A stretch of DNA of 37,976 nucleotides, taken from Akkermansia muciniphila (GTDB taxonomy: Bacteria; Verrucomicrobiota; Verrucomicrobiia; Limisphaerales; UBA9464). Below the pieces are notes generated by a model. That model saw nothing but the letters and a program-made list of their open reading frames with translations, was not told the DNA's origin and did no database searches. The stretch is from the NCBI GenBank assembly GCA_945898055.1, contig CAMDGV010000040.1, forward strand, positions 1 to 37,976, given 5' to 3'. The translations under genes and the position numbers were made by a program. Below, in pieces: positions 12,193 through 16,304 of this stretch (positions are counted from its first letter, which is position 1; the number at the start of each line of letters is the position of its first letter).

Positions 12193-13299
12193 TTAGCTCA
12201 CGCCGACCCGGATCAACCGCATCAGCAAATAAGCCAGAGTTGCAGTCACCGGCAAGGTCAAAACCCAAGCCCAAATAATACGCTCAACGACACTGAAATT
12301 AAGTGCATTAAAACGCTTAGCGCAGCCAACTCCCATGATACTAGTGGTGATGGCATGGGTGGTTGAGACTGGCATTCCGAAGTAAGCGGCGACACTCAGC
12401 ACCGTGGCAGCGGTTGTTTCGGCAGCAAAACCATGGACCGGTTGCAATTTGACCATTTTGTGACCCATCGTCTTGATAATCTTCCAACCACCGGCTGCGG
12501 TCCCAGCTGCCATCGTAAGAGCACAGGTCACCTTGATCCAAACGACAATGCCTTCTTTGCCATCGGCACCAATTTCCATCGGTTGCCTTAAAAAGGTGAG
12601 CCACTCCGGTAGATCAGCCAAGGTCCCCGCTTTGCCCGCTCCCAACAAGGCCAAGGCGATAATCCCCATGGTTTTCTGAGCATCATTACTGCCATGACTA
12701 AACCCCATATAAGCGGCACTCAGGAGTTGCGCCTTACCAAAAACTCGCGTCACCCACTTGGGGGTCCAATTGCGGAGAGAAAAATAAAGAAAAGTCATCA
12801 GGAAAAGTCCCACCAACAACCCCATCAAGGGCGAGAGGAACATCGGAATGATAACCTTGTAAAGAAGGCCTTCATATTTGTACCAAGACACTCCTTCCTT
12901 AACTTTACTGAAGACAACTACGGACAAATTATTTCCAGCGGCAGCAATACCCGCCCCCAAAAGGCCACCAATCAAGGCGTGGCTCGAACTGGAGGGAAGC
13001 CCAAACCACCAAGTCACGAGGTTCCACACGATGGCCCCGCTCAGAGCGCAAATAAGCATCTGAGTCGAGAGTGCCGATGGAATTAGCTTCGGATCGAGTA
13101 AGCCAGAGCTAATGGTCTTAGCCACAGCTGTCCCATACAAAGCACCGATTAAGTTTGTGACCGCGGCCAAGAGAATCGCCAATCGGGGGGTTAATACCTT
13201 GGTTGAAACCACCGTCGCAATCGAGTTGGCTGTATCATGGAATCCATTGATGTATTCAAACACCAAGGCCACCATAATGACCGTAAACAAAAGGGTCAT
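12193..13299 (-). CDS. Inorganic phosphate transporter, PiT family
   Basis: A 368-residue inner-membrane permease that takes up phosphate (or metal phosphate) with H+ or Na+. The two inverted PiT signature repeats are seen: VFEYINGFHDTANSIATVVSTKV near the N-terminus and GFSHGSNDAQKTMGIIALAL mid-protein, with VSTTHAITTSIMG near the end and about ten hydrophobic helices. Length is at the short end for the family. It lies 12 bases after the DUF47 gene, with which PiT permeases are classically paired, and is the last gene of the module. Confidence 0.95.
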   Translation of the reverse strand: MTLLFTVIMVALVFEYINGFHDTANSIATVVSTKVLTPRLAILLAAVTNLIGALYGTAVAKTISSGLLDPKLIPSALSTQMLICALSGAIVWNLVTWWFGLPSSSSHALIGGLLGAGIAAAGNNLSVVVFSKVKEGVSWYKYEGLLYKVIIPMFLSPLMGLLVGLFLMTFLYFSLRNWTPKWVTRVFGKAQLLSAAYMGFSHGSNDAQKTMGIIALALLGAGKAGTLADLPEWLTFLRQPMEIGADGKEGIVVWIKVTCALTMAAGTAAGGWKIIKTMGHKMVKLQPVHGFAAETTAATVLSVAAYFGMPVSTTHAITTSIMGVGCAKRFNALNFSVVERIIWAWVLTLPVTATLAYLLMRLIRVGVS

Positions 13300-13311: not shown

Positions 13312-13938
13312 TTAGGAATTCTTAAGAACGATCTGAACAATCACGTTGCCGGCGTCGCGGCAGCGGTCGATGACTTTTTCTAAAAGGTCATAGAGATCCT
13401 TGAGTGCAACCACGGTCACAGCGTCGTGTTTTGCATTGTAAAGTTCCCCCAGCAGTTGGGTCATCTGCTTGTCTGCTTGGCCTTCAAAATATTGCAGCTT
13501 GTCGTTCTTCTCCTTGACTTTCGGTAAGTCAGGCGAGTGACGCAATTCTTGAACCATTGTGAGCAGGGTTTCCATCGACTGCTGAAGGAGTTCTGCCTGA
13601 CGTTTAAAATTGGATGCCTGCACTCTCTCAGGACAAATCAGAAAGCGCTCGGTAAACTTTTCCAATGTCTTCGGAATTTTATAAAGTGCCTTGGCCAAGC
13701 TATCAATGTCTTCGCGCTCGAGAGGCGTGACAAAGGTGGTGATCAGTCGTTCCTGCAATTCTTCGGTGATGCGCTTATCTTTGCGTCGAACCGTGGCAAA
13801 TTGGTCTAAAGCCGATACCCTGGGACTCGAGAGTGTCTTAACAAAAATCTGCACACTTTCATTACCTTCTTTGGCGCTCTGCTCCAGAAGGTCGAAGAAG
13901 ATATCGCCGCCCCCCACTAGTTTTTGAAATGAGAACAT
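13312..13938 (-). CDS. DUF47/PhoU-like phosphate transport regulator
   Basis: A 208-residue cytoplasmic helical protein of the DUF47 family (TIGR00153-like), related to PhoU. It begins MFSFQKLVGGGDIFFDLLEQ and has the repeated acidic helices (EGQADKQMTQLLGELYNAKH, VALKDLYDLLEKVIDRCRDAGNVI) that bind metal in PhoU proteins. Members are almost always encoded next to a PiT permease and are thought to gate it. It precedes PiT by 12 bases and follows the porin gene by about 70 bases, so all three are probably one transcript. Confidence 0.9.
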   Translation of the reverse strand: MFSFQKLVGGGDIFFDLLEQSAKEGNESVQIFVKTLSSPRVSALDQFATVRRKDKRITEELQERLITTFVTPLEREDIDSLAKALYKIPKTLEKFTERFLICPERVQASNFKRQAELLQQSMETLLTMVQELRHSPDLPKVKEKNDKLQYFEGQADKQMTQLLGELYNAKHDAVTVVALKDLYDLLEKVIDRCRDAGNVIVQIVLKNS

Positions 13939-14010
13939 AATATTATAAAAATGCAGTTAAGTGTCGAATTAAAGTCTTTCAGGTTACGGAATTGAAATAA
14001 TATGAAGGGT

Positions 14011-15474
14011 TCAATAATTAATCTGAGCCTGAACGCTGATTCGATCTGCACTCTCAGAGTTTAAATAGGGGGCGATTTTGGTGTTGGTCCGCTCAAAAGT
14101 GCGGGTGTATTGGACGGTAAATTCGACCGCCGGCCATGGGGCCCATTCGATCCCAAAATCTAATTCATTCACGCGCTCGGAGGGCGCATTAATCGCAAAC
14201 TTGCGACCGCCTTGGTACGACTGCCAGCGAAGAAATGGAAACCAAGCACCTAAACGATTATCGTCCTTGTAGGAAAGTTGAACATACCCGCCATTGAGAC
14301 TTCCTGCGGAAATCGTCCGACGATCACTCGAAAGCTCAGGGCCAATTCCAAAGTTCCATTCCGCCTCGACCCCAAAGGGCTGAGGATACCATACCGCACT
14401 CACTCCCGCCCGTTGGTCTGCGGTTCCATCAGGCCGAGCAAGAGGGGTTATCGCGGAAGCCCCAGAGCCGATGGTTTGACTTGATGTGACAAATCGACCC
14501 GAATAGGCTTGAACACCCGTCTCGAAAAATTGCCCGTTCGGCAATTGAAATGGGTAGCTAGCGCGGGCCACAAAATGGGGGTCGCCGTTGAAATCAAGGC
14601 GATTGAGACCTTGCCCAGAATAAGCTCCCAAACCTAGCACTCCATAGTCACCTGAACCCTTGAGCCCCAGCTTCACGAGGTCTGCATACCGCTTACGGAT
14701 AGCATCCGGAGCCCAATAGAAAAAGGCTCCAATATCTCGTTCCCCTTCCGCCACACTATTGATGGCGTCCGGTCGTTCTAAGGGAGCTCGATTGGCTGAA
14801 GATTGCAAATTAGACCAACCGAAGGGCACCTTGGATTGCCCGATCCGAATCCGGTATTCTTTGTCAGTATCAAAGGATATATCGCCGTATAGATCCCGCA
14901 ATTGCACCGAAAAGTCCCCAGAAGTTGGCGATCCATTCAGATCCGGTTGGATATAAAGAAGTAAATGTTCTGAAACATCGCCGCTCAAGACCACTCGGGC
15001 CCGTCGAATATAAAAAGAAGAATTCTCCGCAACAGAACGATCATTTGGAACCATTAAATCGGCGCCGTCCTGACTCAGAATGGAGGTGTAACGAAACTGG
15101 GTGTAACCTTTAACTCCCAAGCGTTCATACCATTTGGATTTTAGTATCTTGCTAAAGGAATCGGTCGTCAAAGGTGCCGCCGATTTAACCGAGCCTTGAG
15201 CCGATTCTGCTGCCTTCGGGGGAACGGTTACCGATCCGTTCGTCTTGGATTCGACCACCGGCAAGGCCACCACGGTTTTTGGGGAACTAGCGGCAGACTC
15301 GTCGGCAACTGCAGCAACCATTTCATCATATTCTTGCTGCGAAATAGACCCACGATCCTTCAGCACTCTCAATAACTTCAGCATCACCGGCCCTGCGGCT
15401 TCGACCGAACTAAAGGGCGTAGCGCCGCTCACTCCCAAAAGAAAACACAGCCCTAAGATTTTGTGAACTCGCAT
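14011..15474 (-). CDS. Phosphate-selective porin, OprP/OprO type
   Basis: A 487-residue outer-membrane beta-barrel that lets phosphate into the periplasm. ATG 15474 is chosen over TTG 15477. A signal peptide (MRVHKILGLCFLLGVSGATP) is followed by VMLKLLRVLKDRGSISQQEY, the short SHOCT-like helix common at the start of Verrucomicrobiota porins, then a linker and the porin_O_P barrel (SFYIRRARVVLSGDVSEHLL, YRIRIGQSKVPFGWSNLQSS) ending in INY. Placement directly before DUF47 and PiT suggests an outer-to-inner membrane phosphate route. A large leader hairpin and a Pho-box-like array lie upstream. Confidence 0.85.
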   Translation of the reverse strand: MRVHKILGLCFLLGVSGATPFSSVEAAGPVMLKLLRVLKDRGSISQQEYDEMVAAVADESAASSPKTVVALPVVESKTNGSVTVPPKAAESAQGSVKSAAPLTTDSFSKILKSKWYERLGVKGYTQFRYTSILSQDGADLMVPNDRSVAENSSFYIRRARVVLSGDVSEHLLLYIQPDLNGSPTSGDFSVQLRDLYGDISFDTDKEYRIRIGQSKVPFGWSNLQSSANRAPLERPDAINSVAEGERDIGAFFYWAPDAIRKRYADLVKLGLKGSGDYGVLGLGAYSGQGLNRLDFNGDPHFVARASYPFQLPNGQFFETGVQAYSGRFVTSSQTIGSGASAITPLARPDGTADQRAGVSAVWYPQPFGVEAEWNFGIGPELSSDRRTISAGSLNGGYVQLSYKDDNRLGAWFPFLRWQSYQGGRKFAINAPSERVNELDFGIEWAPWPAVEFTVQYTRTFERTNTKIAPYLNSESADRISVQAQINY

Positions 15475-15475
15475 C

Positions 15476-15527
15476 AAAAAGTAGCCTCAAAGCAGGTTTT
15501 GTTTGCACCTGCTAATTCCTACTTTTT
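15476..15527 (-). promoter_or_regulatory. Leader hairpin abutting the porin start codon
   Basis: On the minus strand AAAAAGTAG pairs exactly with CTACTTTTT, and inside it AGCAGGT pairs exactly with ACCTGCT, with small internal loops of 5-6 bases. The T-run ends one base before the ATG at 15474, and the only Shine-Dalgarno-like GAGG lies inside an internal loop. It could hide the ribosome site or act as an attenuator. Structure is seen; the role is inferred. Confidence 0.55.
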
Positions 15528-15532
15528 AGACT

Positions 15533-15565
15533 CTGTGTGACGCAAAAGCGTCAAAACTGTGACAG
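15533..15565 (-). promoter_or_regulatory. Pho-box-like operator
   Basis: Read toward the porin gene there are three 11-base units, CTGTCACAGTT, TTGACGCTTTT and GCGTCACACAG. The spacing and the GTCA cores fit the PhoB direct-repeat box (CTGTCAT every 11 bases); the middle unit is poor. The same bases also form an inverted repeat, TGACGC-AAAA-GCGTCA, so another regulator is possible. Confidence 0.4.
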
Positions 15566-15623
15566 TTAGGTTACGTTAAGTTCTTAAAGATGACTTTTCG
15601 TCGTTTTTTATTAAGTAGAAAAC

Positions 15624-16304
15624 TTAACGAAAAGCTTCCGGGATGGTCTCAGGAACTCCAACGGTTCGACGATAATCAAGAATAATCCGGACGGCTTCCT
15701 CGGGTGTCTCCACGACCTTCATTAGATCCATGTCCCCTGCTGAGATCATCCCAGAAGATCCCAAGGTATCTCGCGACCAATCCAACAATCCCTGCCAATA
15801 AGAGCGTCCGAATAAAATCAACGGAAACGCAGGAATTCGCCCCGTTTGAATGAGCGTTACGACTTCAAAGAGCTCATCCAAAGTACCGAAGCCGCCTGGC
15901 ATATACACAAAACCCATACTGTATTTTACCAAGCAAACCTTCCGACTGAAAAAATAATGAAAGTTCACCGACAAGTTTGAGTAGGGATTGCTCACTTGCT
16001 CAAAGGGCAATTCAATATTTAACCCGACACTCCTGCCTTTTCCTTGCGAGGCTCCTTTGTTGGCGGCTTCCATGATCCCAAGCCCTCCACCGGTCAAAAC
16101 CGTAAACTTTTCTTTGGCAAGGCTTTTGGCGATCTCCACAGCCGCTTTGTAATTTGGGTCCGATGGTTTGGTCCGCGCGGATCCAAAAATGGTGACCGCT
16201 GCTTCAATTCGCGACAGTTTGTCGAAGGAATCAACAAATTCCGCCATAATTTTTAGGACGCGCCAAGGGTCTTCTACCCCGCGTTGCTCTCGTATACTTT
16301 TCAT
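15624..16304 (-). CDS. LOG family protein (TIGR00730), nucleotide 5'-monophosphate phosphoribohydrolase-like
   Basis: A 226-residue cytoplasmic Rossmann-like protein of the LOG/YgdH group, which cleaves ribose-5-phosphate from nucleotide monophosphates (in plants, cytokinin precursors). Both signatures are present: TGGGLGIMEAANKGASQGKG and MPGGFGTLDELFEVVTLIQT. The start also carries an SDR-like segment (AAVTIFGSARTKPSDPNY) that is standard for the family. It is the last gene of the minus-strand run and starts 27 bases after recG. The physiological substrate in bacteria is uncertain. Confidence 0.9.
   Translation of the reverse strand: MKSIREQRGVEDPWRVLKIMAEFVDSFDKLSRIEAAVTIFGSARTKPSDPNYKAAVEIAKSLAKEKFTVLTGGGLGIMEAANKGASQGKGRSVGLNIELPFEQVSNPYSNLSVNFHYFFSRKVCLVKYSMGFVYMPGGFGTLDELFEVVTLIQTGRIPAFPLILFGRSYWQGLLDWSRDTLGSSGMISAGDMDLMKVVETPEEAVRIILDYRRTVGVPETIPEAFR

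Follow-up and report, generated by a model that had tools for sequence, protein, structure and literature searches.

A Pho-type promoter whose −10/start-point DNA is predicted to fold back on the start region of a phosphate-selective porin gene

We describe a phosphate-selective porin gene whose promoter segment and start region are complementary to each other, in a 37,976-nt stretch of DNA (the window). Our computations reveal 11-bp Pho repeats, a −10 hexamer at a fixed position behind them, a conserved and covarying pairing with one arm in the −10/start-point segment, and a co-directional upstream neighbour followed by no detected terminator. The explanation that we favour, with confidence somewhat better than even, is fold-back masking, in which the porin would be made only from phosphate-starvation transcripts and read-through RNA would be closed. 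A PhoB-type promoter (four 11-bp repeats and the −10 AAAAGT) would drive a porin–DUF47–Pit operon, and the stretch from the −10 to the start point would double as the 5′ arm of an outer stem whose 3′ arm sits immediately ahead of the start codon. RNA initiated at the Pho promoter would lack this outer 5′ arm, carry a 5′-terminal inner hairpin only, by which it is perhaps stabilised, and be translatable; RNA arriving from the upstream gene would have both arms and fold the start region shut.

Results

Phosphate genes of the locus

On the minus strand of the window, a LOG-like gene (Pfam Lysine_decarbox/SLOG, 15624–16304) is followed by the Porin_O_P phosphate-selective porin gene (14011–15474, ATG at 15474–15472), a DUF47/PhoU_div protein gene (13312–13938) and a PHO4/Pit phosphate transporter gene (12193–13299). 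The LOG-like gene is co-directional with the porin gene and is the presumed source of read-through. The porin frame also has an in-frame TTG at 15477, which is missing from the sister locus L003. The named genome closest to that of the window is the MAG Pedosphaera sp. Baikal-deep-G220, whose porin (L032) is 91% identical, and the window therefore probably belongs to Verrucomicrobiota, Pedosphaerales, the lineage of Pedosphaera. Of 320 genomes of the order, 23 hold porin homologues with an E value of 1e-60 or lower, including 9 of the 19 genomes of the genus. Porins about 39–51% identical to that of the window are found in Nitrosomonas, Nitrobacter, Bacteroidota and Myxococcales genomes (L041–L056), a distribution that suggests horizontal spread of the porin gene; a search of viral contigs for further homologues confirmed none.

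A search of the window's own genome for the PstS family TIGR02136, that family alone, gave no match, and phosphate uptake in this genome may rest on the porin, DUF47 and Pit proteins. The best PhoB-like regulator of the genome scores 247 bits, under the TIGR02154 cut-off of 296, and a PAS-HisKA kinase adjoins it. Among solved sequences it comes nearest to MtrA, RegX3 and other OmpR-type regulators, and the name PhoB is therefore used provisionally. In the gap between the porin and DUF47 genes (13939–14010, minus strand), CGTAAC and CGACAC stand 22 bp apart, with TATAAT behind them and immediately ahead of the DUF47 start, and in the L004 genome a weak Pho-repeat match (E 0.095) precedes DUF47 (L078); judged by these motifs, there is possibly a second Pho promoter ahead of DUF47.

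Pho repeats and predicted start point

Four tandem 11-bp direct repeats span 15575–15532 on the minus strand upstream of the porin gene: CGTAACCTAAC (repeat 1, 15565–15575), TGTCACAGTTT (repeat 2, 15554–15564), TGACGCTTTTG (repeat 3, 15543–15553) and CGTCACACAGA (repeat 4, 15532–15542). They confirm the GTCA-core 11-bp repeats of the original prediction, whose interval stopped at 15565 and left repeat 1 almost wholly beyond it. As in a Pho box, the units share a conserved 7-nt core and stand in one register; the core reads GTMAC, repeat 3 is degenerate (GAC core) here and in most relatives, and the 11-bp register is kept among the relatives. Repeats in the same register occur at 18 porin loci and at 3 loci of another gene (L065, L075, L076). 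These 21 promoters were picked for having the repeats; loci with a repeat-score shuffle p of at least.03 (L014, L017, L038, L039, L041–L044, L046–L051, L053, L056, L061, with a shorter array in L041–L043) and loci whose arrays look doubtful by eye (L015/L040, L020, L052, L054, L060) stand outside the set. In the window's own genome, the repeat model finds one strong site, which is the porin promoter of the window and itself a member of the model (E 2.1e-5), and four further sites at E 0.29–1.3 (150 of 636 candidates scored). With the four other sites reaching only these values, we dropped a wider Pho regulon of this genome as a test bed.

In Pho promoters the −10 lies about 10 nt past the core of the last repeat, a spacing taken from E. 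coli phoA, and a −35 is dispensable. The window has AAAAGT (15521–15526, minus strand) 10 nt after the GTCAC of repeat 4. A hexamer of the form xANNNT stands at this offset (49, exactly 10 nt past the repeat-4 core) in 16 of the 21 promoters selected for their repeats, including 9 of 9 in the genus, with A at its position in 18 and T at its position in 19; at any other offset from 20 to 74 the same form is found in at most 7 of 21. This is strong evidence that the offset-49 hexamer is the −10. From its position in 16 of 21 promoters we infer a transcription start near 15514 (15512–15516), 7 nt after the −10. The transcriptional control by phosphate status that had been predicted is well supported by the repeats in one register, the −10 at fixed spacing and the PhoB/PhoR-like pair, with PhoB binding itself standing as a prediction.

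A two-tier hairpin across the start point

Nine outer and seven inner base pairs form on the minus strand, exactly the two-tier hairpin that had been proposed. In the outer stem, the 5′ arm AAAAAGTAG (15519–15527), which overlaps the −10 and lies upstream of the predicted start point, makes nine pairs with the 3′ arm CTACTTTTT (15476–15484), which ends one base before the ATG. In the inner stem, AGCAGGT (15507–15513), at or next to the predicted 5′ end of PhoB-driven RNA, makes seven pairs with ACCTGCT (15491–15497). A Shine-Dalgarno-like GAGG, which is GGAGG in sister L003, follows at 15485–15488. The proposed 52-nt span of the hairpin holds, and the T-run that was said to touch the start codon is separated from the ATG by the G at 15475. 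A start near 15514 would place the outer 5′ arm (15527–15519) outside PhoB-driven RNA, which would then carry only the inner stem at its 5′ end and leave GAGG and ATG free. A transcript starting downstream of the hairpin had been named as counting against the original prediction; the predicted start, past the outer 5′ arm, goes some way in that direction, and the inner stem would stay in the RNA.

The segment 15530–15475 folds at −19.9 kcal/mol (z −4.2), which 0 of 200 dinucleotide shuffles equalled. In natural sequence of similar G+C, taken as 57-mers of the window on both strands at step 5 (the hairpin site itself falls off this grid), 4 of 3459 fold equally and 1 of these also matches the arm complementarity. 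At step 1, with the site omitted, 21 of 17015 overlapping 57-mers fold equally and 10 also match the arms. Such segments are commoner when G+C is not matched: 177 of 8428 window 57-mers then both fold as well and match the arms. Searching the window against curated RNA families, we found that only two tRNAs reach the gathering score, and on this basis we rejected membership of a known riboswitch or RNA thermometer family.

The chief rival to fold-back masking is a plain ribosome-site hairpin in the main leader, which is possible if transcription starts earlier than predicted here. The main starvation transcript would then begin upstream of the outer 5′ arm and every porin mRNA would have the hairpin, which would damp or regulate translation through ribosome-site masking, as an RNA thermometer or as a similar leader switch. 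We give this a distinctly smaller, though still appreciable, probability. A −10-like TAnnnn at repeat 3 of some relatives (L012, L058, L059) speaks for it. A promoter that uses repeat 3 as its −10 would start at about offset 40 and include the whole hairpin in its RNA; we rejected this promoter, as xANNNT occurs at the corresponding offset 28 in only 4 of 21 promoters, against 16 of 21 at offset 49, and the candidate of the window at offset 28 is CTTTTG.

Conservation of the outer pairing in the genus

Whether pairing is conserved in relatives had been named as a decisive point for the hairpin, and in most relatives it is kept: the outer pairing persists through sequence change in seven of nine genus leaders, though not in the closest sister, L003. 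The segment that runs from repeat 4 up to the start codon folds better than its dinucleotide shuffles in L002 (the locus of the window), L005, L006, L008, L009 and L013 (p.002–.018), and no better than them in L003 (.45), L004 (.29) and L007 (.096). When the arms are tested for pairing against single-base shuffles, as in all arm tests of the genus, Nitrosomonas and Nitrobacter/other leaders, p is.019 for the window,.007–.013 for L005–L009 and L013,.014 for L011 and.036 for L045, with no signal in L010 (.55), L012 (.40) and L041 (.59); these values are to be read with segment bounds and offsets set after a first look at the alignments and with related sequences that are not independent, L007, L009 and L013 being nearly alike. 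Loci with Pho-like repeats and a long leader or an unclear start (L016, L018, L019, L020, L058, L059, L060, L093, L094, L101, L102) lie outside the arm tests.

The arm sequences differ between lineages, yet match within each. When 3′ arms were swapped among seven lineages, the true matching ranked first of 5040; when the set held the weaker members L003, L007 and L004, it was among the best 2 of 5040, and with four genus leaders alone it was the best of 24. In seven genus leaders, 91.7% of cells are paired, against at most 53.6% when the arms are slid, and their covariation score was reached by 4 of 500 shuffles. Two pairs are changed on both sides in these leaders, an unexceptional count that 72 of 500 shuffles reached. 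The compensated changes run from C-G to G-C in the outer helix and from U-A to C-G in the inner one; the lineage of the window has an A-U-rich outer helix at these same 5′ columns. RNAalifold, applied to seven ungapped genus leaders from the other two lineages, returned the same two-tier fold unprompted.

The stem is not equally firm everywhere. In L003 a G to A change in the −10 breaks it (arm p.35), and the outer pair probability there is.00–.37 depending on context. L004 has an outer pair probability of.74 alone and of at most.21 with coding sequence added, and values in L005, L007 and L008 go down to.06,.26 and.25 in some contexts. Taken across the leaders compared, the outer pairing does not look like chance. 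A conserved and covarying outer pairing suits fold-back masking and also a hairpin carried by every porin mRNA.

It suits less well the idea that only the inner hairpin matters, as a stabiliser of the mRNA against 5′-end-dependent decay, with the outer stem of the window arising by chance. In ompA-type stabilising stem-loops, a stem within a few nucleotides of the 5′ end confers a longer half-life, and the inner stem of the porin leader, near the predicted 5′ end, fits this position; its stabilising effect would be by analogy. In the genus leaders the inner stem begins no further than about 3 nt from the predicted start point, and its pair 22-35 covaries in seven leaders. We nevertheless consider this idea unlikely, given outer arms that covary both in the genus and in Nitrosomonas and folds from the predicted start that rise at best modestly above shuffles (p.018–.75 in nine genus leaders).

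Leaders of Nitrosomonas and Nitrobacter porins

The porin occurs in 23 of 85 genomes of the Nitrosomonas genus, and 16 leaders from there (L103–L118) combine 11-bp Pho repeats with a −10 of type TAnnnT and a hairpin; the 5′ arm of this hairpin starts where the −10 ends, and its 3′ arm includes the Shine-Dalgarno sequence. Arm pairing reaches p ≤.05 in 10 of the 16 and lies above.05 in 6. In N. europaea, GCCTCCC directly follows AATAAT and GGGAGGC lies at the Shine-Dalgarno sequence (−17.5 kcal/mol, p.001). The covariation score of the Nitrosomonas alignment was reached by 0 of 500 shuffles, pairing amounts to 78.0% against at most 54.3% when partners are shifted, and permuted arms equalled the leaders' own arms in 2 of 20000 permutations. 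Five pairs changed on both sides are unexceptional (128 of 500 shuffles reached this count), and the RNAalifold consensus of the 16 leaders, which differ in loop length and include a few rows aligned out of register, is weak, with only 4 pairs and −1.07 kcal/mol.

Nitrobacter winogradskyi gives an arm-pairing p of.022. Nitrobacter vulgaris (L041) gives no arm signal (p.59), and the layout is thus present in one of the two Nitrobacter tested. L100 reaches p.025 without a gain in opening cost, and L098/L044 and L099/L046 have no clear Pho repeats. The leader sequences of Nitrosomonas and Nitrobacter are unlike those of the genus despite the same layout; because the porin genes are related, this layout may have been inherited along with the porin gene.

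Position of the pairing partner and cost of opening

We scanned each leader, from −70 onward, for the 10-nt stretch that is the strongest pairing partner of the 16 nt ahead of the start codon. The scan covered 28 leaders (9 of the genus, 16 of Nitrosomonas, and L097, L100 and L043); L097 also stands for L042, with which it shares one leader, and L010, L011, L012, L045 (=L096) and L041 (arm p.55,.014,.40,.036 and.59, respectively) were left out. The best partner starts at −8 to +6 relative to the first base after the −10 in 22 of the 28 leaders and lies elsewhere in L003, L004, L103, L104, L112 and L116. Mean pairing energy peaks at −8.2 kcal/mol at the −10/+1 segment, compared with −1.3 to −3.6 kcal/mol upstream and −0.9 to −5.1 kcal/mol downstream, a region into which fewer leaders extend. 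If transcription starts about 7 nt past the −10, the DNA of the best partner would be left out of the promoter's own RNA and included in read-through RNA. The start region thereby pairs upstream of the predicted own start point, as fold-back inhibition demands, though not every leader pairs. A hairpin serving the main leader need not have its partner at the −10/+1 segment itself, and the position found in 22 of 28 leaders counts against that rival.

In the window, the cost of opening the start region is 3.4 kcal/mol for the short RNA, against 11.2 kcal/mol for the long RNA and 5.2 kcal/mol when the arm is shuffled (p.025). Within the genus, the opening cost beats that of the shuffled arm only for the window (L002) and L013. 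In Nitrosomonas, it is more than 1 kcal/mol higher in read-through RNA in 10 of 16 leaders, by up to 12.7 kcal/mol, and the other 6 gain 1 kcal/mol or less.

The simplest alternative, an ordinary Pho promoter with hairpins that form by chance, finds its argument in the closest sister, L003, which is without a stable outer stem. Shuffle, natural-sequence, arm-swap, slide and positional controls all disfavour chance, and we regard this alternative as very improbable.

Transcription from upstream

Fold-back masking presupposes RNA that enters from upstream. The upstream frame is co-directional in 5 of 8 readable genus loci, with 45–48 nt from the gene end to the repeats where the gene is LOG-like and 8–38 nt where it is of the DUF1684 type (Pfam match in L005). 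Of 20 Nitrosomonas/Nitrobacter loci, 17 have a co-directional frame that ends no more than 320 nt away; L042 and L097, both positive and with the same leader, are among the 20, and in L107 this frame is RmlD by Pfam. A simple scan for terminator-like sites upstream found none in any of the loci scanned (13 of 13 and 20 of 20), and on the minus strand of the window none of the hairpins between the LOG-like gene and the porin gene is terminator-like. Read-through from the upstream gene into the porin gene is plausible from this arrangement. In a 9-bp inverted repeat, CGTTAAGTT / AACTTAACG (15621–15629 and 15574–15582), one half lies at the stop codon of the LOG-like gene and the other at the edge of Pho repeat 1.

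Transcription attenuation, one of the two modes of leader control originally suggested, found no support: no G+C-rich stem followed by a U-run lies between the LOG-like gene and the porin gene, no terminator-like site was found, and the T-run at the porin start is itself the outer 3′ arm next to the ATG.

L007, L009, L013 and L105 keep the stem although their nearest intact upstream gene looks divergent, which favours a hairpin acting in the main leader. The loss of the stem in L003 and L004 and the divergent neighbours weaken the read-through reading more than they weaken the pairing itself. Upstream of the Pho repeats in L007, L009 and L013 lies a C-terminal remnant of a DUF1684-type gene, probably the result of a recent deletion, and a divergent methyltransferase-like gene (named by eye) stands beside it; L005 and L006 keep the DUF1684-type gene whole.

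Discussion

Control at the leader, as first suggested, is partly borne out: the outer 5′ arm lies in the −10/start-point DNA, and masking of the start region most likely acts on read-through RNA and not as a leader that senses phosphate. The logic of such masking is familiar from other systems. In fold-back inhibition of IS10 and IS50, a promoter-proximal segment of read-through RNA pairs with its start region, just as we propose for the porin, and serves there to protect a transposase against outside transcription rather than to govern phosphate uptake.

Long early transcripts of the phage T4 lysozyme gene e fold and mask translation, and those that begin at promoters a short way ahead of the ribosome site are missing the 5′ strand and are translated (PMC3014915). 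The likeness lies in a start region that is masked in long RNA and free in short RNA; the difference is that gene e is a phage gene with late promoters, whereas the porin gene is chromosomal, has a PhoB-type promoter and has a pairing and start derived from sequence. For B. subtilis sigG and spoIIG, PMC5942855 reports a hairpin proposed to block the read-through transcript that cannot form in the gene's own transcript. This is again a bacterial gene whose own transcript is without the blocking hairpin; sigG has at least 20 pairs and a sporulation promoter, whereas the porins have about 5–9 pairs at the Pho −10/+1 segment, in two phyla. With this logic already known from T4 gene e and B. subtilis sigG, what appears to be new is its use for a phosphate porin behind a Pho promoter.

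Pho boxes consist of 11-bp direct repeats read by PhoB, according to PMC4415409 and PMC2648988. The promoter of the window shares the 11-bp direct repeats and differs from the boxes outlined there in having four units, a degenerate third unit and a GTMAC core, in probable Verrucomicrobiota, with PhoB binding predicted only. In the open-access literature, outside which most subscription journals lie, we found neither a leader-controlled phosphate porin nor a Pho promoter with such a fold.

More tentatively, with the balance falling just short of even, a design rule might hold for the porins of Verrucomicrobiota, Nitrosomonas and Nitrobacter, in which the spacer between −10 and start point is the complement of the ribosome-binding and start region, and only PhoB-started mRNA is translatable whatever gene lies upstream. 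If true, the few bases between −10 and +1 would encode both a promoter and an insulator that silences a nutrient porin on read-through RNA, and host genes would have an insulation principle that could be screened for in any genome. A mistimed outer-membrane channel may be costly, and a tight shut-off would then make sense. The pattern, a −10/+1 segment complementary to the pre-start region, is cheap to find and can be tested in cultured Nitrosomonas europaea.

The three further loci with Pho-like repeats (L065, L075, L076) have them ahead of a gene for a BamE-like lipoprotein, in each case near 1501–1538, and in L075 and L076 this gene is followed by a MotA/ExbB gene (Pfam match made in L076). 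At all three the −10 is so close that the mRNA would be nearly leaderless, and L076 has a 6-bp hairpin with the −10 as its loop that ends just before the start codon.
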